A stretch of 64,000 nucleotides of DNA. It comes from an uncultured Clostridia bacterium (GTDB taxonomy: Bacteria; Bacillota; Clostridia; Oscillospirales; Acutalibacteraceae). The position numbers and the translations under genes are program-made. Below the pieces are notes generated by a model that was not told the DNA's origin, did no database searches, and was given only the letters and a program-made list of their open reading frames with translations. The stretch lies in the NCBI GenBank assembly GCA_944384995.1, contig CALWVN010000004.1:48993-112992 (forward strand), written 5' to 3'. Below, one piece after another: positions 45,213 through 60,108 of the stretch; position 1 is the stretch's first letter, and each line of letters opens with the position of its first letter.

Positions 45213-45237
45213 GCATATAAAGTCTTATGACAAGAAA

Positions 45238-45325
45238 CAGGGGGGCTGGCGCCAAGCCGGCTGAGATAAAGGATAGCGCTCCTTTGACCCTACGACCTGA
45301 TGCGGGTAATGCCGCCGTAGGAAGC
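45238..45325 (+). promoter_or_regulatory. TPP riboswitch (THI box)
   Basis: Conserved THI elements are in order: GGGG, GGCTGAGA (about 45259-45266), GACCC, ACCTGATGCGGGTAATGCC and GTAGG. It senses thiamine pyrophosphate and controls the downstream terminator hairpin, shutting the ABC transporter operon when thiamine is plentiful. Confidence 0.95.
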
Positions 45326-45350
45326 TTTTTGTTTTGCGTGAAAACATCGA

Positions 45351-45388
45351 AAGCCTTACGACAGCTTGCCGTAAGGCTTATTTTTTTG
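45351..45388 (+). terminator. Riboswitch expression-platform terminator
   Basis: A 10-bp stem AAGCCTTACG/CGTAAGGCTT, nine-base loop, then ATTTTTTT. It lies between the TPP aptamer and the first gene, and would form when the aptamer is bound. Confidence 0.92.
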
Positions 45389-45406
45389 CAAACGGAGGAA
45401 AAAACA

Positions 45407-45706
45407 ATGAAAGCAAGCGTAGCCATCCAGGTCCTGCCCGGCGTGCAGGATACGAAAGAAGTCGTGCGGATCGTAGACGAGGTCATCGACTATATCGCGT
45501 CCACAGGACTTCACTATTCTGTCGGCCCCTTTGAGACGACCATCGAGGGCGAGGATTACGATCAACTGATGGAGATCGTCAAAGAGTGCCAGCACGTCGC
45601 CGTGCGTGCGGGCGCGCCGTCGGTTTCCGCCTATGTCAAAATTTCGTACAAGCCCGAGGGCGGGGTGCTGACCATTGACGAAAAAGTTACAAAACATCAC
45701 AAATAA
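45407..45706 (+). CDS. Thiamine-binding protein, MTH1187/YkoF family
   Basis: A 99-residue ferredoxin-like fold protein that binds thiamine or its pyrimidine in the cytoplasm. It shows the family strand pattern K-A-S-V-A-I-Q-V-L-P, a Y-S-V-G-P-F-E-T-T-I-E-G motif and a long V-K-E-C-Q-H-V-A helix. ATG follows CGGAGGAA. First gene after the TPP switch; its end overlaps the permease start by 32 bases. Confidence 0.9.
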   Translation: MKASVAIQVLPGVQDTKEVVRIVDEVIDYIASTGLHYSVGPFETTIEGEDYDQLMEIVKECQHVAVRAGAPSVSAYVKISYKPEGGVLTIDEKVTKHHK

Positions 45707-46451
45707 GCTGTCGCCCATCGCGGCGCTGCTTGTGGTCGTGGCGCTTTGGGCGGCGGCGACGGGCTTTGAATGGGTTCCGGCGTTCATGCTGCCGTCTCCG
45801 CGCGCGGTGCTCGATGCATTCGTTTCGGATTTCCCGCTGCTCTTGCAGCATGCGGGCGTGACGCTGTGCGAAGCGTTCGCAGGGCTTACGATCGGTGTGC
45901 TGCTCGCCTTTGTGCTCGCGGCGTTGATGAACCGCTTTGCGTTTCTTTACAAGGCGCTTTACCCGGTGCTGGTCATCACGCAGACCATCCCGACCATCGC
46001 CATCGCACCGCTTTTGGTGCTGTGGATGGGCTTCGGTATGGCGCCGAAGATCACGCTGGTCGTCATCACCACGTTCTTCCCCATCGCCGTAAGTCTTTTG
46101 GACGGCTTTCGCAGTGCCGACGCGGATGCGGTCAATCTGCTGCGCAGCATGGGCGCGGGCAGGCTCAAAATTTTCCGCCATGTGCTCATGCCCTCGGCGC
46201 TCGGCTCATTTTTTGCGGGGCTGAAAGTCTCTGCCTCCTATGCGGTGGTGGGCGCGGTCATTTCGGAATGGCTCGGCGGCTTTGAGGGCTTGGGCGTATA
46301 TATGACGCGCGTGCAAAAAGCATATGCGTTTGACAAGATGTTTTCCGTGATCTTATTTATCACGCTCATAAGTCTCGTGCTGATGTGGGGCGTGACGCTG
46401 CTGCGGTATCTTGTGATGCCGTGGGAACGAAAGGAGAAAGAGAGCAAATGA
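45675..46451 (+). CDS. thiX: ABC transporter permease for thiamine precursor (ThiX-like)
   Basis: Membrane subunit of a hydroxymethylpyrimidine or thiamine-precursor importer. The 258-residue protein has about six helices and the ABC-permease EAA motif (F-R-S-A-D-A-D-A-V-N-L-L-R-S-M-G-A-G-R-L-K) facing the ATPase. TTG start after GGGGTG, inside the end of the binding-protein gene. Coupled to thiY by an ATGA overlap. Confidence 0.88.
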   Translation: MTKKLQNITNKLSPIAALLVVVALWAAATGFEWVPAFMLPSPRAVLDAFVSDFPLLLQHAGVTLCEAFAGLTIGVLLAFVLAALMNRFAFLYKALYPVLVITQTIPTIAIAPLLVLWMGFGMAPKITLVVITTFFPIAVSLLDGFRSADADAVNLLRSMGAGRLKIFRHVLMPSALGSFFAGLKVSASYAVVGAVISEWLGGFEGLGVYMTRVQKAYAFDKMFSVILFITLISLVLMWGVTLLRYLVMPWERKEKESK

Positions 46452-47461
46452 AATCGATTTTGAAAAAGCTCGGCGCGCTGCTTTTGTGTGCGGCGATGCT
46501 GTTTTCGCTGGCGGCGTGCGCGGGCGACCAAACCGGGAATGGCGATCTGACGGAGATCACCCTGTCGCTCGACTGGACGCCGAACACCAACCACACCGGC
46601 ATTTATGTGGCGCTCGCCAACGGCTATTTTGAAGAAGCGGGCCTTTCCGTTACCGTGGTGCAGCCGCCCGAAACGGGCGCGGCAGCCATGTGTGCGGCGG
46701 GGCAGGCGCAGTTTGCCGTAGAAGCGCAGGACACGCTTGCCGCAGCGTTTGTGACGGACGAGCCCTTGGGCATTACGGCGGTGGCGGCGCTTTTGCAGCA
46801 TAATACCTCCGGTATCATCTCGCGCGCGGGCGAGGGGATGGACAGACCGAAAGGTCTTGAGAACCACACCTATTCCACCTGGGATTCGCCTATCGAGCTT
46901 GCCACGCTGCGCGCGGTCGTCGAGCGTGACGGCGGCGATTTTGACAAGGTGAATCTGATCCCCAATACCATCACCGACGAAGCGGGTGCACTGCGCGAGC
47001 ATCTGACGGATGCGATCTGGGTGTTTTACGGCTGGGGCTGCATCGCGGCCGAGCTTTCGGGTTTGGATTTCGACTATTTCAATTTCAAGGACATCGATCC
47101 CGTGTTCGATTACTACACGCCGGTGCTCATTGCAAACAATACATTTTTGGAGGAGCACCCCGACGAGACGCGGGCGTTCCTCGACGCTTTGCGCAAGGGC
47201 TATGAATACGCGATCGACAATCCCGAAGAGGCGGCGCAGATCCTTGTGGACGGCGATACCACCGGGTCACTTCGCGATTCGCTGGAGCTTGTGACCGCAA
47301 GCCAGAAGTGGATCTCCGAGCAGTATAAGGCGGAGGTCGAGCAGTGGGGCTACATCGACCCCGCGCGCTGGGATGCATTTTATGCGTGGCTTTGGGACAA
47401 CGGGCTTGTCGAAAAAGAGCTGCCCGCAGGAACGGGGTATACGAATGCCTACCTCTCCTGA
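46448..47461 (+). CDS. thiY: Substrate-binding lipoprotein for thiamine precursor (NMT1/THI5-like)
   Basis: Extracytoplasmic binding protein. A lipoprotein signal with lipobox L-A-A-C at residues 22-25 is followed by the NMT1-type domain: L-D-W-T-P-N-T-N-H-T-G near 41, P-P-E-T-G-A-A-A-M, and the Cys/Trp-rich W-V-F-Y-G-W-G. It probably binds HMP or formylaminopyrimidine. The 337-residue size is normal for the family. Confidence 0.9.
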   Translation: MKSILKKLGALLLCAAMLFSLAACAGDQTGNGDLTEITLSLDWTPNTNHTGIYVALANGYFEEAGLSVTVVQPPETGAAAMCAAGQAQFAVEAQDTLAAAFVTDEPLGITAVAALLQHNTSGIISRAGEGMDRPKGLENHTYSTWDSPIELATLRAVVERDGGDFDKVNLIPNTITDEAGALREHLTDAIWVFYGWGCIAAELSGLDFDYFNFKDIDPVFDYYTPVLIANNTFLEEHPDETRAFLDALRKGYEYAIDNPEEAAQILVDGDTTGSLRDSLELVTASQKWISEQYKAEVEQWGYIDPARWDAFYAWLWDNGLVEKELPAGTGYTNAYLS

Positions 47462-48701: not shown

Positions 48702-50045
48702 TCATTTTGTCAAAACGCCGTCATCGCCGTAAAGCAGCAGCAAAATTTCTTCCTCATAACCTGTCTGCGTGCTGATATAGACTAAGAATTCTTCGTCGCT
48801 TTTGTTTTTGCAGTGGAACTCATAGGTGAGCACTTCCCCGCCGCTGTCGGTCGGGATCACGGCAAGACGCGCGTCCGTGACCGTCAAAAGGGGACTGACA
48901 TTCGCCTCGGCCGCTTCGCGCGTCACTGCGGGCGCGGTATAGGTGCGCGCCTTGTGGTTCATCACGTAACCGCGGCAGTCCGCCGAAAGCACCGTGCCGT
49001 CCGCAAGGCTCACGCTGACCTTGATGAGATCGGGATAGCAGATATAGCCGTTTTCCGTGAAGGCGTAGTTAATGGTGCAAATGCCGTCGGAGACCGTGTA
49101 ATAGCTTTCCTGCATATCGGTAAACCCGCAGTGCGTCAGAAAGTCGGCGGCGTAAGTGCGCGCATCCTCATATTGAAGCGTCGCCTCGCCCACAAAGCTG
49201 CCCGAAAGCAGATACAAAAGATATCCCCCGCGCTTTGTAACGGCGATAGTCGCGTCCTCCGTCCCGAACACGTAAGCGGCGGAATTGTCCTCCTCCGTGC
49301 CGACAAAGGTCAGCGCATCCTTTTCCATACCCAAAATCTCCGCCGCGCGCTCGTGCGCCTGCTCCCGGGTGAGCTCCTCGGCTGCGACAAGCAGCTCAGA
49401 TTCCATCTGATTGATATGATCTGAGAACGGGCCGTCATAAATGAGCGACGGATATTCCGTCAGCGCCTGTTCGGTGTCCTCCATATCGCCGGAAAGCGTG
49501 CCGATCTGTTCGGTATCCGCAGCAAGCGTGTTTTCTGCGGCGGTAAAGTCCAAAAACCCTTCGTAAAGCTGTGTGCGCATATCAGAGATCTGTGTGCTTA
49601 AGGTCTCTGCGAAATCCAAAAGCGCAAACATCTGTTGGCGTTCGTCATCGGTGATCTGCTCGCCTGCCTCCACCTTGCGGCTTAAAGACATGACAAAATC
49701 ACCGACCTGCGACAGGAATTTGTACGTGTTGTCAAGCCTTGTGTCCGAAAGCGGCAGGACCGCAAGGCTGCTTTTTGCCGATGTCGCTTCGCGCCAAAGC
49801 TCGGTCGCCATGGTGCCGAGCATCGGTGCGGTGTTGGCATACACGCCCTTTTGCAGGTTCGTCTGCATACTGCTTAAGGAATCGTCCAATTCTGCGAGCG
49901 CCCGTTCGCCCGAAGCGCGCAGCTGCCGTTCATATCGGTTCGCACGCACCGTACCGGCTATGGCAAAGGCAGACAGCGTGAGCACAACCGCCGCCGCAAA
50001 AGAAAAGAGCCGGATCCGGCTTCGTTTGGACTTAGGTTTCCCCAT
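48702..50045 (-). CDS. ypeB: Germination protein YpeB
   Basis: Stabilises and controls the spore cortex-lytic enzyme SleB in Bacillus-type spores. The 447-residue protein has an N-terminal membrane helix (about 13-33), a long helical domain (40-210) and C-terminal PepSY-like repeats (A-A-E-I-L-G and A-R-T-Y-A-A-D-F-L). The ATG at 50045 lies six bases after GAGGTG; a GTG three codons earlier is worse. sleB, the usual partner, is not adjacent. Confidence 0.88.
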   Translation of the reverse strand: MGKPKSKRSRIRLFSFAAAVVLTLSAFAIAGTVRANRYERQLRASGERALAELDDSLSSMQTNLQKGVYANTAPMLGTMATELWREATSAKSSLAVLPLSDTRLDNTYKFLSQVGDFVMSLSRKVEAGEQITDDERQQMFALLDFAETLSTQISDMRTQLYEGFLDFTAAENTLAADTEQIGTLSGDMEDTEQALTEYPSLIYDGPFSDHINQMESELLVAAEELTREQAHERAAEILGMEKDALTFVGTEEDNSAAYVFGTEDATIAVTKRGGYLLYLLSGSFVGEATLQYEDARTYAADFLTHCGFTDMQESYYTVSDGICTINYAFTENGYICYPDLIKVSVSLADGTVLSADCRGYVMNHKARTYTAPAVTREAAEANVSPLLTVTDARLAVIPTDSGGEVLTYEFHCKNKSDEEFLVYISTQTGYEEEILLLLYGDDGVLTK

Positions 50046-50121
50046 ATCGTTCACCTCGTGGATAGATTTTGCAGTCGCGCCGAAAATATACGAAAAAAAC
50101 CGCAGAAATCACGGTTTTTGT

Positions 50122-50150
50122 TTGCCAAAAGGGCGTTCCTCGTGTATAAT
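50122..50150 (+). promoter_or_regulatory. Promoter of the nifS-to-TPM gene run
   Basis: TTGCCA, 17-base spacer and consensus TATAAT, 53 bases before nifS. No terminator is seen in the following 9.9 kb of same-strand genes. Confidence 0.72.
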
Positions 50151-50202: not shown

Positions 50203-51333
50203 ATGGAAAGCTATCTCGACAACAGCGCAACCACACAGCCGTGTAAAGAGGCGGTGGCTGCCGCAGTGGACGCGATGACCGAGCACTTCGGCAATCCGTC
50301 ATCTTTGCATCAAAACGGTATGGCGGCACAGCAGCAGCTCGAACGCGCGCGAAAAACGATCGCGGACAGCCTTCGCGCCGAAAGCGGCGAGATCGTCTTC
50401 ACCCCAAGCGGCACGGCGGCGAACAACACGGCGATCTTCGGCGCTGTGGCCCGATACCGCAGCGGGAAGATCGTGACTTCCGCCATGGAGCATCCGAGCG
50501 TCGAGCAGTGCATGCAGGCGCTCGAAGCGCGGGGCTTTACGGTCGTGCGATTGCACCCTAACAAAAACGGACATATCGCCGAAGAGCAGATCGCCGAGGC
50601 GGTGGATGAGAAAACCGTGCTCATAAGTCTGATGGCGGTCAACAATGAGGTCGGCAGCGTCCTGCCGTATTCGGCGCTCGGGCGCATTGTGCGCGCCAAA
50701 AAATCGCCCGCACTCGTGCATGTGGACGCGGTGCAGGGCTTTTTGAAGCTGCCCATCGTGCCGAAAAAATGCGGCATCGATCTGTTGAGCGTCAGCGCGC
50801 ACAAGGTGCACGGACTTAAGGGCGCAGGGGCTTTGTATGTGCGCAAGGGCGTGCGTATCAAGCCTTACTTACTCGGCGGCGGGCAGGAAAACGGGCTTTG
50901 CTCGGGCACGCAGCCCATGCCCGCCATTGCGGCGTTCGCGGCGGCGGTGCGCGCTTACGGCGACAGTGCAACGCACCTTGCCCATGTACGCGCGCTGCGT
51001 GATAGGCTTACGGAACAGTTGTCGGCGCTTTCGGGCGTGCAGGTCAATTCCCCGCCCGACGCGCTGCCGTACATCCTCAATATTTCCCTGTGCGGCGTGC
51101 CCGCGCAGGTCGGCGTCAACGCGCTGTCCGCACGCGGGGTGTGCGTTTCGGCGGGCTCTGCGTGCTCACGCGGGCACCGCAGCGCCGTGCTCACGGCAAT
51201 GGGGCTTTCCCCGGAGCGCATAGATACGGCGCTTCGCATCAGCCTCTCGCGCGGGACGACCGAAGCCGAGATCGACGCGTGCGCGTCGGCTGTGGCGGAC
51301 GTCCTCAAAACAATCGGCAAAAAAGGAACATAA
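50203..51333 (+). CDS. Cysteine desulfurase (NifS/NifZ-like)
   Basis: PLP enzyme that moves sulfur from cysteine to a persulfide. The 376-residue protein shows Y-L-D-N-S-A-T-T-Q at the start, the cofactor Lys in S-V-S-A-H-K-V-H-G (about 205), and the catalytic Cys in S-A-G-S-A-C-S-R-G (about 324). Placed directly before thiI, as nifZ is in Bacillus subtilis, so it most likely delivers sulfur to ThiI for tRNA thiolation. Confidence 0.92.
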   Translation: MESYLDNSATTQPCKEAVAAAVDAMTEHFGNPSSLHQNGMAAQQQLERARKTIADSLRAESGEIVFTPSGTAANNTAIFGAVARYRSGKIVTSAMEHPSVEQCMQALEARGFTVVRLHPNKNGHIAEEQIAEAVDEKTVLISLMAVNNEVGSVLPYSALGRIVRAKKSPALVHVDAVQGFLKLPIVPKKCGIDLLSVSAHKVHGLKGAGALYVRKGVRIKPYLLGGGQENGLCSGTQPMPAIAAFAAAVRAYGDSATHLAHVRALRDRLTEQLSALSGVQVNSPPDALPYILNISLCGVPAQVGVNALSARGVCVSAGSACSRGHRSAVLTAMGLSPERIDTALRISLSRGTTEAEIDACASAVADVLKTIGKKGT

Positions 51334-51337
51334 GATT

Positions 51338-52516
51338 ATGCAGGAAATCATACTCATCAAAAACGGCGAGCTCGCGCTCAAGGGGCTCAACCGGGCAACC
51401 TTTGAAAGCGTTTTGGTAAAAAATATCAAACGGCGGCTGCACGATTTAGGACATTTCGTCATAAACCGTTCACAATCTACGATTACAATAGAACCGACGG
51501 GATCGGACTTCGATACGGACGAGGCAGTTGAACGCCTGCGCCGTGTGTTCGGCATCGCCGCGTTCCAGCGCGCCGCTGCGGTGGAAAAACGCATGGACGC
51601 GATTTTGGAAACGGCGGGTGCGTATCTCCGGGAAGATATGGCGGGCATTTCTGCGTTCAAGGTGGAGTCCAAGCGTTCGGACAAAACGTTCCCTCTGACT
51701 TCGCCGCAGATCAGCGCGGAAGTCGGCGGCAAGCTGCTGGAAGCTTTTCCGCATCTGCATGTGGATGTGCACAACCCCGAAAAGATCGTCACGGTCGAAA
51801 TTCGCGAGCATGCGGCATACATCCACTGTGACCAGCTGAAGGGCGCGGGCGGCATGCCCGTCGGCACGGGCGGCAAGGCAATGCTGCTCATTTCCGGCGG
51901 CATCGACAGCCCGGTTGCGGGGTGGATGATGTCCAAGCGCGGCATCGTGCTTGACGCGGTGCATTTTGCATCGCCCCCGTACACCTCGCCGCAGTCGGAA
52001 ATGAAGGTGCACGATCTGCTCGGGCAGGTTGCACGTTATTCCGGGGACATCGGGCTTTACACCGTGCCGTTTACCGAAATTCAGGAGCAGATCCGCGACA
52101 ACTGCCCCGAAGCACTGTTCACGCTGGTGATGCGGCGGTTCATGATGCGCATTGCCGAGCGCATTGCGCGCCGTGAAAAATGCGATGCGCTCATTACGGG
52201 CGAAAGCGTGGGACAGGTCGCGAGCCAGACCATGCTCGCCTTAGGGTGCACGGACGCCGCGGCGACGCTGCCCGTGTTCCGTCCGCTCATCGGTATGGAC
52301 AAAGATGAGATCATCGTCCGCGCGCGGCAGATCGAGACGTTTGACATTTCCATCCGCCCGTATGAGGATTGCTGCACGGTCTTTACACCGCGCCACCCGC
52401 GCACGCGCCCGTCGCTTTCGCTTGTGGAAGCAGCGGAACAGAAGCTCGATGTAGAAGCACTCGTTTCCCGCGCGGCGCAGGATGCGAAATTTGAGATCAT
52501 AAGGAACGGTCGATAA
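51338..52516 (+). CDS. thiI: tRNA 4-thiouridine synthase ThiI
   Basis: Thiolates uridine-8 of tRNA, protecting against near-UV. The 392-residue form lacks the C-terminal rhodanese domain, as in other Firmicutes. Domains: N-terminal ferredoxin-like and THUMP (about 1-170), then a PP-loop ATPase with S-G-G-I-D-S-P-V-A-G-W at about 187-197. It starts four bases after the desulfurase. Confidence 0.94.
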   Translation: MQEIILIKNGELALKGLNRATFESVLVKNIKRRLHDLGHFVINRSQSTITIEPTGSDFDTDEAVERLRRVFGIAAFQRAAAVEKRMDAILETAGAYLREDMAGISAFKVESKRSDKTFPLTSPQISAEVGGKLLEAFPHLHVDVHNPEKIVTVEIREHAAYIHCDQLKGAGGMPVGTGGKAMLLISGGIDSPVAGWMMSKRGIVLDAVHFASPPYTSPQSEMKVHDLLGQVARYSGDIGLYTVPFTEIQEQIRDNCPEALFTLVMRRFMMRIAERIARREKCDALITGESVGQVASQTMLALGCTDAAATLPVFRPLIGMDKDEIIVRARQIETFDISIRPYEDCCTVFTPRHPRTRPSLSLVEAAEQKLDVEALVSRAAQDAKFEIIRNGR

Positions 52517-52517
52517 C

Positions 52518-52997
52518 ATGACGCTTGCGGAACAGGCGGTAAAAAAGCTGAAGGCACAGCATAAAACGCTCGTCACGGCGGAATCGTGCACGGGCGGATG
52601 GATCGCCAAGCGCATCACCGACATCGCCGGCGCGTCTGAGGTGTTTGAATGCGGCATCGTTTGCTATTCCAACCGCATCAAAACGGAGCTGCTCGGCGTG
52701 CGAAAGGAAACGCTCACCGAATTCGGCGCGGTCAGCGAACAGACCGCGCGGGAAATGGCGCTCGGTGCGCTGGATGTGTCAAAAGCGGATGTGGCGGTCG
52801 CGGTTACAGGAATCGCAGGTCCCGATTCCGATAATACGGGAAAACCTGTGGGGCTTGTATACATTGCTGTTGCAGACCGCACGCGCGTGGAAGTGCACGA
52901 GTTCCGCAATCACTTTACGGACAACGTCCGGGACAATAACCGCCGCGCTTCGGCGGACAATGCGCTTGCAGCTTTGGGGAGGTTCTTAGACACATGA
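52518..52997 (+). CDS. pncC: NMN amidohydrolase (PncC, CinA C-terminal domain)
   Basis: Deamidates nicotinamide mononucleotide to nicotinate mononucleotide. The 159-residue stand-alone CinA C-terminal domain has the catalytic loop A-E-S-C-T-G-G-W near residue 22, Y-S-N-R-I-K, G-A-V-S-E-Q-T-A-R-E-M and V-T-G-I-A-G-P-D. Its product enters the same NAD pathway as pncB at 29-30 kb. It lies one base after thiI and overlaps the first sortase by four bases. Confidence 0.92.
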   Translation: MTLAEQAVKKLKAQHKTLVTAESCTGGWIAKRITDIAGASEVFECGIVCYSNRIKTELLGVRKETLTEFGAVSEQTAREMALGALDVSKADVAVAVTGIAGPDSDNTGKPVGLVYIAVADRTRVEVHEFRNHFTDNVRDNNRRASADNALAALGRFLDT

Positions 52998-53956
52998 GCA
53001 CACAAAACGAGCAGGCCCCGCGCCCGAGAAAGCAAAAAAAACAGTCCCGCTTCAGCAAAACGGTCAACCGCGTCATTACGATCGTCGCGGTTCTGGTTCT
53101 GCTTGTGGCAGGGGCGGTGTGCGTCAAGTATTTTGTCGAGCTTTACCAGAACAAAAATCAGACTGAGGAACTCGCCGCGCTCGTGACGGAGTCCGAAGAA
53201 AACTATCCGGACGAACCGGCTTGGGTGCAGCCGAAATACCGGGAGCTTTATAACCAAAACAACGATTTCGTCGGCTGGATCACGGTGCCGAACACCGCGA
53301 TCAACCATCCCGTGATGCAGAGCGACGACAACGAGTATTACCTGCGGCGGGACTTCTATAAAAACTATCTGCGCCGCGGCACGGTGTTCATGGATTACCG
53401 CAACGACCCGGAAAACCTGAATGTGAACACCATTTTGTACGGGCACAACTATCTGGATTCCACAATGTTTTCCGATCTGGAGAAATATAAGGACATCGAG
53501 TTTTATAAGACGGCGCCCGTTATCGAGTTCAACACGATCTACGCCGACCACAAATGGAAGGTGTTTGCCGTGTTCCTGACGACGGCGTCCCCGGAGCTTG
53601 ACAACAACTATGTGTTCAATTACATTTACCCGTTCATGACGGAGTCGAGCTTTGCGGAATTCATCGACGAGGTCGCCAAGCGCAGCCTGTATGATACCGG
53701 CGTGGAGGTGCTGCCGACGGATAAGATCCTGACGCTTTCCACCTGCACGCGGGATATGGACATCACCAGCAAGCAGGAAAATGCGCGCTGTGTCGTGATG
53801 GCGCGGCTCGTGCGTGAGGGCGAGGACGAATCGGTGGATACGTCTCAGGCGACGGTGAATCCGAATCCGAAATATCCGCAGCTTTGGTATGACAAATACG
53901 GGATCGAAAACCCGTATAAGGATGATGAAAAATGGTACCCGAGAGGTGAGGGTTGA
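52994..53956 (+). CDS. srtB: Class B sortase
   Basis: Cell-surface transpeptidase joining sorting-signal proteins to peptidoglycan. Residues 1-25 are basic and cytoplasmic, 26-46 a membrane helix. The catalytic set is His151 (Y-G-H-N), Cys251 (L-S-T-C) and Arg265. The C terminus carries an extension Y-P-Q-L-W-Y-D-K-Y-G-I shared with the next gene. No obvious sorting-signal substrate (NPQTN- or LPXTG-like) is encoded in the window. Confidence 0.92.
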   Translation: MSTQNEQAPRPRKQKKQSRFSKTVNRVITIVAVLVLLVAGAVCVKYFVELYQNKNQTEELAALVTESEENYPDEPAWVQPKYRELYNQNNDFVGWITVPNTAINHPVMQSDDNEYYLRRDFYKNYLRRGTVFMDYRNDPENLNVNTILYGHNYLDSTMFSDLEKYKDIEFYKTAPVIEFNTIYADHKWKVFAVFLTTASPELDNNYVFNYIYPFMTESSFAEFIDEVAKRSLYDTGVEVLPTDKILTLSTCTRDMDITSKQENARCVVMARLVREGEDESVDTSQATVNPNPKYPQLWYDKYGIENPYKDDEKWYPRGEG

Positions 53957-55419
53957 TGCCGAAAAACGAAAAAGAACACGCGGAGGATATGCTTTCGTTT
54001 GACGAACTCAAGGATAAAGTGCAGCCGGATACGGACGAGACCGACCCTGAGGTTGCCGCGCTGCTTGATTCCCTGAGGGATATAGAACCGCCGCCCGAAC
54101 CGGCACAGACGCCCGCCGAAGCACAAACCCCTGCCGAAGCAGCGCCCGAAACGCCGAGTGAAGCGGAGAATTACAAAAGCATTTATAACGACGTGCTGCG
54201 TTCGGTGATGCAAAACGAACAGGAAAGCGAAAAGACCACCCGCAAAGCCAAGTTTTTATCGGATGAGAGCCAATTTGTCGATGTGACCGACCGGTATGAG
54301 GGGTTCGCCGATCTGCAAAAGCAGCCCGAAGCCGATCCCCCCGCTGCCGCAGCACCGGCGGAAGCGACACGGGAAACCGAAGCAAAAGCGCAAACCGAGA
54401 CGGAAGAAGTGCCCGCCGAGGAAAAGCAGTACCGCACTTTTAATGAGATCTTCAAAAGCGGGCTGCGCAAAATTTTCCCGAATAAGCGTGACACCGTCGG
54501 CGAAGGGATCCGCAAGGTGATCGTCGATCTGTCTGTGCTCGCGCTCGTTGCCTGCGGCGTCTATTTTGGCGTTTACGCCTATCAAAGCCATGCCGCAAAA
54601 GCGCAGCAGGCAGAGATCACCGGGCAGATCATTGCGGAGGATACCGTTGACAGCGAGAGCGATGTGTGGGCGGAATTCTTCGCGCAGTATCCCAATATCC
54701 AGCTTCCCGAGGGCATGATGGCAAAATACGCCTATCTGTATGCGATCAACCAGGACTTAGTCGGCTGGATCCGGATCCCGAATTCCATCGTCGATGTGCA
54801 GGTGGTGCAGAGCGAGGAAAACGGCGAATACCTGAAAAAAGATTTTTACGGCAATTACAGCCGCTACGGCTGCCCGTATATGGACTACCGCAACGATCCG
54901 AAATACCTCGGGCAGAACACCATTATTTACGGGCATCATATGAGCGACGGGCTGGTGTTCGCCGATCTCACCAAGTACAAGACCATAGAAGGCTTCCAGG
55001 AGTCTCCGATCATTCAGTTCGATACGCTGTACCGCAGCTACACCTTTAAGGTGTATGCCGTGCTCATTACAAACAGCCAGGCGGACGATGATAACGGGTA
55101 TATCTTCAACTATACCGTGACGGACTTCGGCTCCGAGGAAAACTTCATGGAATATATTGCGGCGGTGGATGAGCGCAAGCTGTATACGACCGGCGTGGAC
55201 ATTCAGCCCGGCGACAAGCTTTTGACACTGCAAACGTGCACCTATGAATTCTCCGACGCACGCCTGGTCGTCATCGGCAGGATGGTGCGCGACGGCGAGA
55301 GCACGTCGGTGGACACGAGTCTGGCGGTGGAAAATGCTTCGCCGCGCTATCCGCAGGCGTGGTATGACAAGCAGGGGATCGCGAACCCCTATGCGGACGC
55401 TGAAAAATGGATGCCGTAA
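53956..55419 (+). CDS. srtB: Second class B sortase with long acidic cytoplasmic tail
   Basis: A paralogue of the preceding gene but with a 185-residue N-terminal extension, rich in Glu, Pro, Ala and Thr (P-A-E-A-Q-T-P-A-E-A-A repeats), before the membrane helix (about 188-209). The sortase domain keeps His327 (Y-G-H-H), Cys428 (L-Q-T-C) and Arg436. The shared tail Y-P-Q-A-W-Y-D-K-Q-G-I-A-N-P-Y ends it. ATG 53956 overlaps the previous stop (TGATG). The cytoplasmic tail is unusual for sortases and suggests regulation or docking. Confidence 0.9.
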   Translation: MPKNEKEHAEDMLSFDELKDKVQPDTDETDPEVAALLDSLRDIEPPPEPAQTPAEAQTPAEAAPETPSEAENYKSIYNDVLRSVMQNEQESEKTTRKAKFLSDESQFVDVTDRYEGFADLQKQPEADPPAAAAPAEATRETEAKAQTETEEVPAEEKQYRTFNEIFKSGLRKIFPNKRDTVGEGIRKVIVDLSVLALVACGVYFGVYAYQSHAAKAQQAEITGQIIAEDTVDSESDVWAEFFAQYPNIQLPEGMMAKYAYLYAINQDLVGWIRIPNSIVDVQVVQSEENGEYLKKDFYGNYSRYGCPYMDYRNDPKYLGQNTIIYGHHMSDGLVFADLTKYKTIEGFQESPIIQFDTLYRSYTFKVYAVLITNSQADDDNGYIFNYTVTDFGSEENFMEYIAAVDERKLYTTGVDIQPGDKLLTLQTCTYEFSDARLVVIGRMVRDGESTSVDTSLAVENASPRYPQAWYDKQGIANPYADAEKWMP

Positions 55420-55447: not shown

Positions 55448-57559
55448 ATGGATATGAAACTGCTCGCATTGACGGCGGGGGAGGAGCACGCACATCTTTT
55501 GGTGCGTATCTCCGGTACGCTCAGCGGGTTTTGTGATACAGACACGGCGTTTGCTGCGTACCCGACGCTCAAAACGCTGCTGCCCGCCTTTGCTGAGGCG
55601 CTGAAGGCACAGGGTGTGATCGTGCTTGCCGTGGACGGCGCGAAGTACAATGCGATCCGTACTAAACTGTGCGCGGCGCTGTCGCTTGCGACGGTCGAAG
55701 ATCGGGCGCTTTATGAGCGCTTGTCCGAAAATACGGCGCTGCCGCCCGAGGAGATCGAGCAGATCGCCCGCGTGCCGAAAAATGCGGCGCTGTTCCCGAA
55801 CACGGATGGGCTGTATACGGGTCTTGCGGTGGAAAAGGGCAAACAGACCATCGTGTTTTTGCCGCTGGAGGAAGAAAGCCTTACGCACGTGCTCAAAAAC
55901 GGGCTGGTGCCGTATCTGATGCGCAAATCGGTCAAGGCGGAGAGCGCAGCGCCCGAAAAGCATGTGACACCTGCCCCCGAAGTATCTGCCGCCGCCGGTG
56001 AAGTGGTACGGCGTACGGTGAATCTGCTGCGTGAAAACAATGCTACGGTCGCCGTAAGCAGCACCCCGAGCGCGCAGATCATCCGTTCGCTCGGCGTAAA
56101 CACGCCGGATTTTGAAACGTTCTTCCTGTTTACACCCCATGTCGAGGACAAGGGCGATTACAGCATGACCGACTACGCCGCGCTGCTGGCAAAATCCGCC
56201 AAGGAGCTTTCAGGTGCAACGTTCGGTGCGTGCATTTCCGATGTCTGCGATGCTGAGGGCGGCACATATGTCTGCGTCACGGTGGCGGATGACAAGACCG
56301 CCGTGGTGCGCAAGCTCTACAAGGAGGATGACGAGACCGAGAACAGCTTCCTGCACGACGCCGCCGAGGAGCTCGTGGAACTGATCGGCGAAAAAGCAGC
56401 GGGCAAGGGCATGGTCGGCATCGAGGTCGCGGACGCAGCGAGCGAGAAAAGCAGCGGCGGGTTTCTTTCCAAGCCCGCCGGCAAGGTGACAATGTCCGTG
56501 ATCGCGCTGGTGCTTGTCGCAGCGGTCACGGTGGGCTGCATCTTCTTTGTCCGCGAACGCCGTGCGCGCGAAGCGCAAAGCACCACACAGCCGCCCATTG
56601 TGACGGAACAGCCCGACACGACCATTGCGCCGGTCGTGACCGACACGGTGACGATCTCGGAATTTATTTATAATGAAATGCAAAACGGCGTGCAGGAAAC
56701 GCCCGCCGAAACGACCACCGCCAGTGCGGCCGGCGTCGCGATCGATACGACCGGCGGCAGCACCGCCACGGGCGACGAGATCCCGTCGGAAATGATCGTC
56801 AACGGCAGGATGCTCGACGCCAAAGAGGCGGTCGCCCGCATGATCGAGGCGGAAATGGACAGCACCTACAATACCGAGGCGCTCAAGGCGCAGACGGTGG
56901 CGATATACACCTATCTCAAATACCGCAATACGAATTGGAAGATCACGGGCGTTACGCTCGCCGACGATTACAGCGACGAGGTCTACAATGCGGTGCGCGC
57001 GGTGTTCGGCGAATATCTGAGCTTCAACGGCGCGCCGGCATTCACGCCGTTCTTCCGCCTTTCGGCAGGCAGAACCGCCGCCTGTGAGACGGTGTTCGGC
57101 ACAAGCTACGCGTATCTGCGTGCGGCGGACAGCATTTCCGACCGCACGGAGGACGGGTACTTAACGCAGCTCATCATTCCGGCAGACGAGATCCGGGAAC
57201 TCGTAGAAGCCTATGACGCGAGCATCACGCTCGGCGAGGAAACCGCCGACTGGCTGGAGGTAACGGAGCACGACGGCGCGGTGGATACGGGAACGGGCTA
57301 TGTGCACACCATCCGCGTCGGCGACCGCGAGATCTCGGGCAGGGAGTTTGTAGACGTGGTCATGGCAGGGAAAAACCTGCCGTCCGTGTGCTTCTCGGTG
57401 ATGTATCAGAGCGAAACCAATGAATTTCTGTTCGAGGTCTACGGTATCGGCTACGGCGTCGGTATGAGCCAGCGCGGCGCGGACCGTATGGCGGCAACGG
57501 GCGCGGAATACACGGAAATATTGTCCCGCTATTACAGCGGTACACAGCTTACGGTTTAA
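55448..57559 (+). CDS. CinA-like pseudoenzyme fused to an extracytoplasmic SpoIID/LytB domain
   Basis: A 703-residue single-pass membrane protein. Residues about 1-160 resemble the CinA N-terminal MoCF domain: the line from VIVLAVDG to P-K-N-A-A-L-F-P-N-T-D-G and L-P-L-E-E-E-S-L aligns with CinA, but the catalytic T-G-G-L-G-P-T is lost. Residues 188-315 resemble the NMN-amidase domain, with A-E-S-x-T-G-G changed to A-V-S-S-T-P-S. A membrane helix (about 347-368) and a Thr/Pro linker follow. The C-terminal SpoIID domain (about 445-703) is intact, with catalytic Glu469 in E-A-E-M, A-L-K-A-Q and G-Y-G-V-G-M-S-Q-R-G. SpoIID is a peptidoglycan lytic transglycosylase. Confidence 0.82.
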   Translation: MDMKLLALTAGEEHAHLLVRISGTLSGFCDTDTAFAAYPTLKTLLPAFAEALKAQGVIVLAVDGAKYNAIRTKLCAALSLATVEDRALYERLSENTALPPEEIEQIARVPKNAALFPNTDGLYTGLAVEKGKQTIVFLPLEEESLTHVLKNGLVPYLMRKSVKAESAAPEKHVTPAPEVSAAAGEVVRRTVNLLRENNATVAVSSTPSAQIIRSLGVNTPDFETFFLFTPHVEDKGDYSMTDYAALLAKSAKELSGATFGACISDVCDAEGGTYVCVTVADDKTAVVRKLYKEDDETENSFLHDAAEELVELIGEKAAGKGMVGIEVADAASEKSSGGFLSKPAGKVTMSVIALVLVAAVTVGCIFFVRERRAREAQSTTQPPIVTEQPDTTIAPVVTDTVTISEFIYNEMQNGVQETPAETTTASAAGVAIDTTGGSTATGDEIPSEMIVNGRMLDAKEAVARMIEAEMDSTYNTEALKAQTVAIYTYLKYRNTNWKITGVTLADDYSDEVYNAVRAVFGEYLSFNGAPAFTPFFRLSAGRTAACETVFGTSYAYLRAADSISDRTEDGYLTQLIIPADEIRELVEAYDASITLGEETADWLEVTEHDGAVDTGTGYVHTIRVGDREISGREFVDVVMAGKNLPSVCFSVMYQSETNEFLFEVYGIGYGVGMSQRGADRMAATGAEYTEILSRYYSGTQLTV

Positions 57560-57586: not shown

Positions 57587-58603
57587 ATGGCAATTCTGGT
57601 AACGGGCGGTACGGGCTTTATCGGTTCGCACACCTGCATCGCACTCACGGAGGCGGGGTATGACGCCGTCATCGTGGATAATTACTACAATTCCAGCCCC
57701 AAGTCGCTCGAACGCATCAACGAGTTGTGCGGCAAGGAACTGAAATTCTATGAGTGCGATATCCGCGACCGCGAGGGGATGACGCGCGTTTTCAAGGAAA
57801 ACAAGATCGACGCGGTGATTCATTTTGCGGGGCTCAAAGCGGTGGGCGAATCCTGCCAAAAGCCGATGGAATATTATGACAACAACATCGGCGGCACACT
57901 GACGCTCTGCGAGGTTATGCGCGACTGCGGCTGTAAGAACATTGTTTTCAGCTCATCCGCGACGGTGTACGGCATGCACAATGTCTCTCCACTCAAGGAA
58001 ACCATGCCCGCAGGCGGTACGACGAACCCCTACGGCACGACCAAATACATGATTGAGATCATTTTGGAAGACATTTACAAGGCGGACAACGACTGGAACG
58101 TCACACTGCTTCGCTATTTTAATCCTATCGGGGCGCATAAAAGCGGCAGAATCGGTGAAAATCCGAACGGGATCCCGAATAATCTCATGCCTTACATTAC
58201 GCAGGTCGCGGTCGGTAAACTGCCTGAGCTTTCGATCTACGGCGACGATTACGACACCAAGGACGGTACCGGTGTGCGCGATTATATCCATGTGGTCGAT
58301 CTCGCAGAAGGGCACGTTAAGGCGCTCGACAACATTTTGTCCGGCAAACGCGGCGTGCAGATTTTCAACCTCGGCACCGGCGTCGGGTACAGCGTTTTGG
58401 ATATCGTGCATGCCTTTGAAGAAGCAAACGGCGTAAAGATCCCGTATAAGATCGTGGGCAGACGCCCCGGCGACATTGCCACCTGCTATTCCGACCCGAC
58501 CAAAGCAAAAGAGGTGCTCGGCTGGCAGGCGAAACGCGGCCTTGCCGAGATGTGCGAAGACTCGTGGCGTTGGCAGAAGCAGAATCCCAACGGATTTGAA
58601 TAA
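57587..58603 (+). CDS. galE: UDP-glucose 4-epimerase
   Basis: Interconverts UDP-glucose and UDP-galactose with bound NAD. The 338-residue SDR enzyme has GGTGFIGSHT (6-15), the catalytic Ser-Tyr-Lys set (S-S-S-A-T-V-Y and Y-G-T-T-K, Lys at about 153) and the family L-R-Y-F-N-P-I-G-A-H. It starts 27 bases after the SpoIID fusion, with GGGAGGA before the ATG, so it is in the same transcript. Confidence 0.95.
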   Translation: MAILVTGGTGFIGSHTCIALTEAGYDAVIVDNYYNSSPKSLERINELCGKELKFYECDIRDREGMTRVFKENKIDAVIHFAGLKAVGESCQKPMEYYDNNIGGTLTLCEVMRDCGCKNIVFSSSATVYGMHNVSPLKETMPAGGTTNPYGTTKYMIEIILEDIYKADNDWNVTLLRYFNPIGAHKSGRIGENPNGIPNNLMPYITQVAVGKLPELSIYGDDYDTKDGTGVRDYIHVVDLAEGHVKALDNILSGKRGVQIFNLGTGVGYSVLDIVHAFEEANGVKIPYKIVGRRPGDIATCYSDPTKAKEVLGWQAKRGLAEMCEDSWRWQKQNPNGFE

Positions 58604-58653: not shown

Positions 58654-59229
58654 ATGAAAAGCAAAAAGTCTCTTTGGATCACGCTTGCCGTGGTGGCGGT
58701 CGTCGTGATCGCTGTCGTGGGTTGGATCATGTCCACCTACAACGGGCTTGTGGAAACGCGCGAGCAGGTGACCGCACAGCAGGCGACCGTACAAAGCCAG
58801 CTGCAAAGACGCGCCGACCTGATCCCGAATCTGGTCAGCACGGTGCAGGCGTACGCCACGCATGAGGAAGAGGTTTACACCGCCCTTGCCGACGCACGCG
58901 CGGCGCTCGCGGGCGCGAGCACGGTCGACGAGCTCAACGAGGCAAACAGCGCTTTGGATTCCGCGCTCTCGCGGCTGCTCGTGGTGGTAGAAAACTACCC
59001 GGAACTGCAGGCTAGCCAAAATTTCATCAATTTGCAGGATGAGCTGGCGGGCACCGAAAACCGCATTGTGCAGGCACGCAATACGTACAACGATATGGCG
59101 CGTGAATACAATACACGCATTCAGCGCTTCCCGTCCTCTTTGATTGCGAGCATCGGCAATTTCGAACAGGCGGATTATTTTGAAGCCTCCGCAGAATCAC
59201 AGACCGTGCCGACTGTGAGCTTTGACTGA
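58654..59229 (+). CDS. lemA: LemA family protein
   Basis: Cell-envelope protein of unknown biochemical function. The 191 residues show an N-terminal membrane helix (about 5-27), then the LemA helical domain: Y-N-G-L-V-E-T-R-E-Q-V, the hallmark R-R-A-D-L-I-P-N-L-V, E-N-Y-P-E-L-Q-A-S-Q-N-F and Y-N-D-M-A-R-E-Y-N-T. Usually found beside a TPM-domain protein, as here. Confidence 0.92.
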   Translation: MKSKKSLWITLAVVAVVVIAVVGWIMSTYNGLVETREQVTAQQATVQSQLQRRADLIPNLVSTVQAYATHEEEVYTALADARAALAGASTVDELNEANSALDSALSRLLVVVENYPELQASQNFINLQDELAGTENRIVQARNTYNDMAREYNTRIQRFPSSLIASIGNFEQADYFEASAESQTVPTVSFD

Positions 59230-59251
59230 TGCAGGGCTTTGGAGGAGAAGG

Positions 59252-60049
59252 ATGAAACGAATTTCGGCGCTCGTGCTGGGGCTTTTGGCAGCGGCGCTTT
59301 TGGTGCTGCCCGCTTCGGCGGCGCGAACGGAAAACCCCGAGCCGACAAGTGACTTTTTCGTCAACGACTTCGCGGGCTGTTTAAACGCCGAGGATGCGCA
59401 GGAGATGCAAGCTTTGGGCGAGGCGCTGTACCGTGCGACGGGGGCGCAGGCGGTCGTGGTGACGGTGGAGTCCTTGAACGGTGCATCCATAGAGGATTAC
59501 GGCTACGACCTTGCCAACGGCTGGGGTATCGGCGACGGTGACGCGGACTCGGGCGTACTGCTGCTGCTTTCCACCAGGGACCGGCAGGTGCGCATCGAGG
59601 TCGGCAGCGGCCTTGAAGGCAGGCTGACCGACGGCAAAACGGGGCGTATACTCGATACATACGCCATACCGTATTTGCAGGTTGATGATTTTTCCACCGG
59701 GCTTTTGGAAGCGTATAAGTCCATTGTCAATGAGGTGTATATCGAATACGGGCTGGAACCCTCCGACGGATATGTCCCCGTGGAGGAAACGGATGAACTC
59801 ACAGATGAAGAACTGAATGGCTTTATTGCGGTTGCAGCGCCGCTTACCTTGGTGTTTGGACTTACGGTGTTCCTTATCCTGCGCCGGCATGGGCACGGCG
59901 GCGGAGGCGGCGGCTTCTATGGCGGTGGCTTTTACGGCGGCTATCACGGCGGCGGGTTCTCCGGCGGCGGAGGATTTTCCGGTGGCGGAGGCGGCTTCTC
60001 GGGCGGAGGCGGCGGGTTCTCCGGCGGCGGCAGCTCGCGCGGGTTCTGA
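59252..60049 (+). CDS. TPM domain membrane protein (YgcG family)
   Basis: A 265-residue secreted/membrane protein paired with LemA. Signal peptide at about 1-23, TPM domain at about 30-165 (F-V-N-D-F-A-G-C-L, Y-G-Y-D-L-A-N-G-W-G-I-G, S-G-L-E-G-R-L-T-D), membrane helix at about 190-210 and a C-terminal Gly/Phe/Ser-rich low-complexity tail ending S-S-R-G-F. The ATG at 59252 follows GGAGGAG. Last gene of the run that starts at nifS. Confidence 0.9.
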   Translation: MKRISALVLGLLAAALLVLPASAARTENPEPTSDFFVNDFAGCLNAEDAQEMQALGEALYRATGAQAVVVTVESLNGASIEDYGYDLANGWGIGDGDADSGVLLLLSTRDRQVRIEVGSGLEGRLTDGKTGRILDTYAIPYLQVDDFSTGLLEAYKSIVNEVYIEYGLEPSDGYVPVEETDELTDEELNGFIAVAAPLTLVFGLTVFLILRRHGHGGGGGGFYGGGFYGGYHGGGFSGGGGFSGGGGGFSGGGGGFSGGGSSRGF

Positions 60050-60072: not shown

Positions 60073-60108
60073 AAACGGACTTCGAAAAACCGAAGTCCGT
60101 TTCGTTTT
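60073..60108. terminator. Bidirectional terminator
   Basis: A 12-bp stem AAACGGACTTCG and complement, loop AAAAAC, then CGTTTTGC on the plus strand and TTTTGCTTTG on the minus strand. It ends both the TPM gene and citrate synthase. Confidence 0.88.

Follow-up and report, generated by a model that had tools for sequence, protein, structure and literature searches.

The CinA protein combines a COG1058 (MoCF) half, a KH domain and a PncC half; in Thermus thermophilus, where it is a dimer, Glu12, Asp45 and Asp76 are the metal ligands of its ADP-ribose pyrophosphatase, Glu156 binds ribose, and Lys301 and Thr340 are residues of PncC (PMC4246079, in the part of that paper drawn on here). The pocket residues of PncC are contributed by two subunits, and occasional fusions of CinA domains to other domains are mentioned, although left unanalysed, in the same source (PMC3855486, in the portion used). 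For COG1058, the portion of PMC3680494 considered names fusions with PncC and FAD synthase only, and plant forms without catalytic residues. As for the lytic transglycosylase SpoIID of Clostridioides difficile, mutation of E101 abolishes activity, and its Zn-binding motif is described as exclusive to this species (PMC6221140, in part). This work concerns a gene which joins a degenerate CinA, hereafter dCinA, through a membrane helix to a SpoIID domain, in an uncultured Clostridia bacterium from the gut (family Acutalibacteraceae). The window analysed is a stretch of 64,000 nucleotides (GCA_944384995.1, contig CALWVN010000004.1, positions 48,993 to 112,992), and all coordinates of this locus are positions within it.

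A CinA copy without its KH domain and active sites

The N-terminal part of the encoded protein is a copy of CinA that lacks the KH domain and in which both known active sites have been lost. The layout of gene and protein is the following:

55448..57559, + strand: dCinA::SpoIID fusion gene, an intact open reading frame (ORF) of 703 amino acids, translation confirmed
55448..55942, + strand: degenerate COG1058/MoCF half of CinA, residues 1-165 (hhalign match to the CinA MoCF half only; Foldseek match to 3kbq, COG1058)
55943..55993, + strand: short low-confidence linker at the position of the deleted KH domain (opposite CinA ~190-270; pLDDT < 50 at 166-179)
55994..56404, + strand: degenerate PncC (nicotinamide mononucleotide, NMN, amidase) half, residues 183-319 (hhalign match to the PncC half only; Foldseek matches to PncC entries)
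56495..56551, + strand: transmembrane helix, residues ~350-368 (hydropathy 2.8)
56813..57556, + strand: SpoIID/LytB domain in canonical order, residues 456-703 (PF08486, TIGR02669, PDB 5i1t/4rwr)
56852..56854, + strand: Glu469, counterpart of C. difficile SpoIID E101 (alignment to 5txu)
57452..57454, + strand: Tyr669, replacing the His of the GxGHGxGMSQ motif (comparison with other SpoIID domains)

The relationship to CinA was clearest between profiles. A profile of 46 N-terminal regions, from which the partial L049 and every row with a GGLGPT or GGMGPN motif had been excluded, matched a profile of 23 intact CinA from the same order as the window organism at 99.4% (E 3.4e-21, score 159.9), with both halves colinear, and a repeat with 41 of the 46 rows (profile A2) and 22 of the 23 CinA (A3) gave 99.4% and E 3e-21. 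As controls, reversed CinA scored 13.4 and the best of 50 column shuffles 21.4, and the 37 rows of the genus alone still reached 98.9% against the CinA profile. In hhalign comparisons, each half recognised its own counterpart: the MoCF half matched the CinA MoCF half at 98.5% (E 1.9e-15) and the other half at 0.5%, and the PncC half matched the CinA PncC half at 97.2% (E 3.4e-11) and the other half at 0.9%. A sequence-only reading of this DNA had already placed both CinA halves in the cytoplasmic part and had named a profile search against CinA as decisive; that search recovered CinA. In the opposite direction, a genome-wide search with the dCinA profile also recovered true CinA, far more weakly than dCinA (E 8.5e-12, 2.3e-11 and 3.2e-9 for the CinA ORFs of L153, L119 and L053).

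Structure prediction, which the same reading had proposed as a check, pointed the same way. An AlphaFold model of residues 1-346, built with 11 close sequences (pLDDT 78, pTM 0.50), retrieved CinA 4ct8 (E 7.2e-13) with Foldseek. CinA or PncC filled the 23 leading PDB rows, all 21 PDB matches at E <= 0.001 among them, and in the viral library the two best rows were likewise named CinA/PncC. Full-length CinA matches had low TM scores of 0.33-0.38 over the model, with root-mean-square deviations of 12-15 Å; a low whole-model TM score is expected if the two domains are placed differently, so that the fold claim rests on the domain-level matches, with TM scores of up to 0.68 by target length. Single sequences and narrow profiles were less telling. 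Pfam found nothing above noise, and neither CinA nor MoCF, in residues 1-334 of the window protein, and the NCBIfam CinA model NF001813 matched residues 88-165 at E 3.1e-4, far below the model cut-off. Among 41 dCinA members searched with Pfam at E <= 0.01, PF02464 was seen in one (0.0057) and PF00994 and PF18146 in none. The narrow profile A1 retrieved no CinA from the PDB, with weak sigma-factor matches only (E 0.06 and 0.2), and the wide profile A2, searched there with HMMER, ranked CinA 6mr3 (E 0.0048) and 4ct8 (E 0.033) directly behind a designed repeat protein (E 0.0016, but with no individual stretch that passed). Since the wider profiles and Foldseek agree on CinA, we judged single-sequence Pfam and A1 to be insensitive.

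The loss of the middle domain, on which the earlier reading was silent, is apparent from the alignment, where CinA ~190-270 faces the short linker only, in addition to the lack of PF18146 matches reported above. That both active-site motifs are lost, as the reading had held, was borne out at the level of columns, which were set by motif on L070 rather than on the 4CT8 chain and are, per position, approximate at such a distance. Among 41 rows, the columns of the metal ligands Glu12, Asp45 and Asp76 are acidic in 2, 0 and 0; the ribose-binding Glu156 column is mixed, holding Glu in 12 (the window protein included), Asn in 12 and Asp in 5; the PncC Lys301 column holds Lys in 3 and Asp or Glu in 31; and the PncC Thr340 column is I/V/L/M throughout, although the column that follows it has a Ser in 40 rows, which would be equivalent under a one-column shift. 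The family has residues of its own, D120, G121, G125, P139 and S264 being found in at least 90% of the 41 rows, and the mean column identity of A2 is 34%. dCinA is kept under purifying selection: against seven relatives, the ratio of nonsynonymous to synonymous substitution rates (dN/dS) was 0.06-0.27 in the MoCF half and 0.02-0.27 in the PncC half (saturated in one of the seven comparisons), with 0.02-0.24 in SpoIID and 0.10-0.42 in the helix and linker, and the fusion protein is therefore not drifting freely.

Operon and architectures in relatives

dCinA and SpoIID are either fused or linked through gene order, in an operon with CinA or PncC and class B sortases. In the window, the fusion gene lies sixth in a co-directional run that reads cysteine desulfurase, ThiI, PncC, sortase, sortase, fusion, GalE, LemA and TPM:

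50122..50150, + strand: sigma-70-like promoter before the operon, 11/12 matches (pattern match only)
50203..51333, + strand: cysteine desulfurase, first gene of the run (PF00266; synteny)
51338..52516, + strand: ThiI (PF02568)
52518..52997, + strand: PncC, intact stand-alone NMN amidase (PF02464 E 7.6e-55; TIGR00199 over cut-off)
52994..53956, + strand: class B sortase 1, catalytic His/Cys/Arg present (TIGR03064 194.5 bits, cut-off 153.75; motifs)
53953..55419, + strand: sortase 2, long N-terminal extension, catalytic residues present (PF04203; TIGR03064 151.7 bits, just under 153.75)
57587..58603, + strand: GalE-like epimerase, next after the fusion (PF16363/PF01370)
58654..60049, + strand: LemA and TPM-domain genes, end of the run (PF04011, PF04536)
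60073..60102, + strand: terminator-like hairpin after the run, 12-pair stem (pattern match only)

The intact PncC that the sequence-only reading had placed four genes upstream is indeed intact and in the same operon, but lies three genes upstream. The promoter-pattern scan of the region found 7 sites against 4.4 expected and the hairpin scan 24 against 14.4; many of the sites in such a scan arise by chance. Next to the operon, a ypeB-like germination gene is divergent from it (48702-50054, - strand), and genes for a thiamine-binding protein and NMT1/THI5-like proteins lie upstream, near ThiI (45227-47461, + strand).

A similar arrangement was found in a survey of relatives, the link to pncC and srtB which had been suggested for such a survey included. 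The fusion gene occurs in 37 of 38 same-genus relatives, in two of which a contig end truncates it, the genome lacking it (G004) being 75% complete. In the family sample, dCinA was found at E <= 1e-18 in 71 of 300 genomes and 31 genera (counted by eye), and among 394 genomes of the order sample there were 13 with a match at E <= 1e-12, of which only G555 and G075 lie outside the family, the G075 match falling in a 422-residue ORF of CinA size. The family operon contains cysteine desulfurase, ThiI, CinA or PncC, one or more class B sortases, and dCinA with or without SpoIID. The gene immediately before dCinA encodes a sortase in 17/17 genus loci examined and in 68 of the 69 loci from other genera, which were selected for holding dCinA (the exception begins at a contig start); CinA or PncC stands further upstream in 61 of the 69 and in 13 of the 17. 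Within the genus, all PF02464 matches are of PncC size (ORFs of 60-226 amino acids; none in G004), and no intact CinA MoCF domain was recognised in 39 genomes: MoCF matches occurred in 6, 5 of them over cut-off, and, judged by ORF size, we read these as MoeA and MogA types.

Architectures were counted with one row per distinct ORF. In the genus, the window protein included, 37 proteins combine dCinA, helix and normal-order SpoIID, and one is cut at a contig end. In other genera, dCinA and helix are followed by a circularly permuted SpoIID in 25 proteins and by one of normal order in a single protein (L137), and 45 of 71 dCinA proteins have no SpoIID in the same ORF (34 with a helix only, 11 without helix). 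These genera also hold 18 separate permuted SpoIID, 16 of which adjoin dCinA, the other two lying on a different contig of a dCinA genome. Tandem dCinA genes, the second alone fused to permuted SpoIID, were seen at L136 and L142 (G289, G198), and at L173-L175 the corresponding place in the operon is taken by the MoCF half alone (204-211 amino acids), with a helix at its C-terminus.

A sister set of 15 proteins (L063:3931-6870, L064:3729-6650, L205-L215, L217, L219) goes further, with a degenerate MoCF domain, a helix (15/15), a dead sortase and a normal-order SpoIID. As a profile, their N-terminal domain matched CinA MoCF at 98.0% (E 1.9e-13) and reversed CinA at 0.1%, and singly only some rows match MoCF. 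The sortase domain has lost the catalytic His and Cys in 15/15 and the Arg in 14/15; in two of the proteins a Cys stands one column early, and in one it stands two columns early. CinA is also fused in frame to class B sortase in several genera (L060:4696-7065, L061:4848-7454, L063:967-3927, L067:905-4201). Pfam recognised MoCF, KH, PncC and sortase in L061, L063 and L067; the L060 fusion was recognised by hidden Markov model, and its MoCF motif is altered to GGMGPN. In a MoCF tree, intact CinA falls on one side (97); a single origin of the dead forms would fit this tree, whose long branches call for caution. In L065 and L067 (family f15), the SpoIID gene that follows the CinA/PncC-sortase fusion has a Big_2 domain, and no dCinA was recognised in it.

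The SpoIID domain and its block order

The sequence-only reading had announced a membrane helix followed by SpoIID, and the domain behind the helix was indeed recognised over both cut-offs, by PF08486 (E 1.1e-7, 32.8 against 23) and TIGR02669 (102.8 bits against 83.3), with matches to SpoIID chains of the PDB at E 8e-25 to 5e-19. The Zn-binding Cys and His of C. difficile fall in a stretch that is unaligned with the window protein. The catalytic Glu which that reading had reported is present here (E469), but its retention does not extend to the whole genus: in the 38 genus proteins, a count that includes the window's own here and for charges below, Glu is found in 34, the other four having Asp (two) or Ala (two), and only 4 keep the GHG His, which gives way to another residue in 33 and to a gap in one. 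By comparison, 70/70 SpoIID domains outside the genus set keep both residues. Given this loss of the His, lytic transglycosylase activity of the genus domain is uncertain. An AlphaFold model of the domain (pLDDT 53) was left out of account.

Of the 44 SpoIID domains that accompany dCinA in other genera, all but one are circularly permuted, with the GYGHGVGMSQ...YYPG block before the EALKAQ block (43 proteins, among them L050, L053, L055, L056, L118-L122 and L124). Two of the separate permuted proteins, L051:1082-2368 and L054:6696-8096, carry repeats that we take to be dockerin-like. A SpoIID tree was built after the blocks had been reset to one order, from 83 of 107 rows with the genus thinned to 13, as a quick tree without bootstrap that leaves out 13 double-dead proteins found later. 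It separates 21 non-operon SpoIID, together with two f15 operon rows, from the other operon rows (SH-aLRT 97). Normal and permuted order require three changes on this tree, at least two of them forced by starred branches, and the normal-order L137 stands beside the permuted L144 with support 98; block order has therefore changed more than once. No literature joining SpoIID with circular permutation was found among openly licensed papers.

Possible role and comparison with known systems

We tentatively favour, at rather less than an even chance, the reading that dCinA is a pseudoenzyme dock which recruits SpoIID to a CinA(PncC)-sortase assembly. Because relatives keep the gene in one conserved cluster, the data suggest that a worn-out CinA copy now steers wall remodelling. 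As a cytoplasmic dock, dCinA would pair with the active CinA or PncC of the same operon via the folds of the CinA dimer, and this pairing would hold the exported SpoIID domain beside the sortase at one membrane site, where, in growing cells, it may trim or bind glycan strands in the service of wall remodelling or of surface attachment that depends on sortase. The occupancy of the CinA/PncC partner, or its metabolic state, could moreover modulate this process. If paralogous pairing is the docking principle, SpoIID proteins bearing dead copies of the co-occurring CinA and sortase modules are to be expected, and where a lineage has CinA and sortase, be they separate or fused, its SpoIID proteins do carry a dead CinA, or a dead MoCF with a dead sortase. 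The homology and fold, the low dN/dS, the family-specific residues, the adjoining sortase gene, the CinA-sortase fusions and the sister set with its dead sortase also speak for the dock, as do the CinA dimer and the two-subunit pocket of PncC. The step from a dead copy in the operon to the binding of the live copy is one we infer from gene order, the fusions and the dimer precedent.

Several observations weigh against such a dock. dCinA has lost the KH domain, which in CinA belongs to the dimer; the Ser kept beside the PncC Thr column makes residual chemistry possible; the many dCinA proteins without SpoIID in the same ORF mean that the role of dCinA cannot always need a covalent SpoIID; the erosion of Glu and His in the genus SpoIID implies that wall cutting may be weak or lost; and ThiI and cysteine desulfurase have no obvious connection to the wall. 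A broader picture would gather cytoplasmic CinA/PncC, class B sortases and SpoIID borne on dead CinA (in sister lineages with a dead sortase too) into one membrane complex, whose dead paralogues dock or regulate, so that pyridine nucleotides recycled within the cell would be linked to the cutting of peptidoglycan and the anchoring of proteins on its outside, with repeated switches of SpoIID order. Such an unrecognised envelope system of one clostridial family is conceivable, and we regard it as unlikely.

A serious rival to the dock, although improbable in our estimation, is a transmembrane ligand sensor, in which dCinA would bind a nucleotide or small ligand in a reshaped pocket and gate the outer SpoIID through the helix. 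Taken as a set, the columns mapped to the CinA active-site loops show somewhat higher conservation than the other columns (p 0.013 by circular shift, uncorrected), as would suit such a pocket, and one of eight single loops, GTAPG, now DG(L/M)Y(S/T)GF, falls below p 0.05 (0.028, uncorrected), but the metal-ligand loops GTELLLG, VGDN and GGLGPT show no raised conservation (p 0.58-0.83), and the metal-ligand acids and the PncC Lys are nearly gone. The ribose-binding Glu kept in a minority of rows and the low dN/dS also favour a sensor, as does the N-in/C-out charge pattern (more Lys and Arg on the N-terminal side of the helix) in 25 of the 26 fusion proteins from other genera. In the genus, the N-terminal side is higher in 23 of 38 proteins, equal in 9 and reversed in 6; the window protein, with 3 such residues before the helix and 4 after, goes against the bias of the other genera. 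A conformational signal would pass poorly through one helix and a long linker, dCinA is frequently found without a fused SpoIID, and the SpoIID of the genus is itself eroding, all of which count against gating. The sequence-only reading is thus partly supported: its anatomy was right, and the sensing of NMN or ADP-ribose remains a proposal.

That the fusion is a vestige, created by read-through after duplication in a cinA-srtB operon and now a cytoplasmic anchor only, is quite unlikely: the gene neighbours would favour an easy read-through fusion and both active sites are lost, but purifying selection acts on both dCinA halves, conserved residues are common to several genera, and dCinA persists without SpoIID in most non-genus proteins. 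It is very doubtful that dCinA has become a neo-enzyme which swapped CinA chemistry for another reaction, as the new conserved polar residues near the old pocket loops (D120, E233, D234, S264) might suggest, for no cluster like a known catalytic site was found by eye and overall conservation is moderate. An engulfment SpoIID of sporulation with an added domain, for which speak SpoIIP in 35 of the 36 genus genomes searched (its own included) and the divergent ypeB-like neighbour, was set aside as having very little probability, since the fusion scores 115.3 bits against the TIGR02870 equivalog cut-off of 234.75, its genome holds a separate SpoIID (L002) at 277 bits, operon SpoIID form a clade apart (the two f15 rows excepted), and the promoter-like site upstream is of housekeeping type as a pattern match.

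The living paralogues that a pseudoenzyme regulates usually share its compartment; in the 31 genera of the family sample, by contrast, a dead cofactor-recycling enzyme has been kept beside, or fused to, wall enzymes across the membrane. A membrane role of CinA would thereby become testable in a defined operon. The natural circular permutations of the lytic transglycosylase domain offer a comparison set for the construction of its active site.

Both parts belong to known families, and the fusion, the chain of dead CinA, sortase and SpoIID and the family-wide operon are apparently new: none of the three was found in the openly licensed literature, which is weak evidence of novelty, and the mention of other CinA-domain fusions (PMC3855486) counts against a strong claim. 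COG1058 is a fusion-prone domain, as in dCinA::SpoIID, SpoIID not being among the partners named in the part of PMC3680494 considered. The inactive CinA/PncC paralogues YfaY and YdeJ of Escherichia coli likewise share a genome with an active PncC, but no fusion to a cell-wall enzyme is described for them, and sortase, SpoIID and transmembrane are not mentioned, in the portion of PMC3855486 used. The window domain belongs to the same family as the SpoIID lytic transglycosylases of C. difficile (5I1T) and Bacillus anthracis (4RWR), with which it shares the catalytic Glu; it differs from them by its score below the equivalog cut-off, its N-terminal dCinA, its unaligned Zn-site and the replaced GHG His. 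With the CinA of T. thermophilus (4CT8) and Streptococcus mutans (6MR3), finally, dCinA is colinear over both halves, with the same predicted folds, whereas it has lost the KH domain and the catalytic residues and gained a helix and a SpoIID domain.

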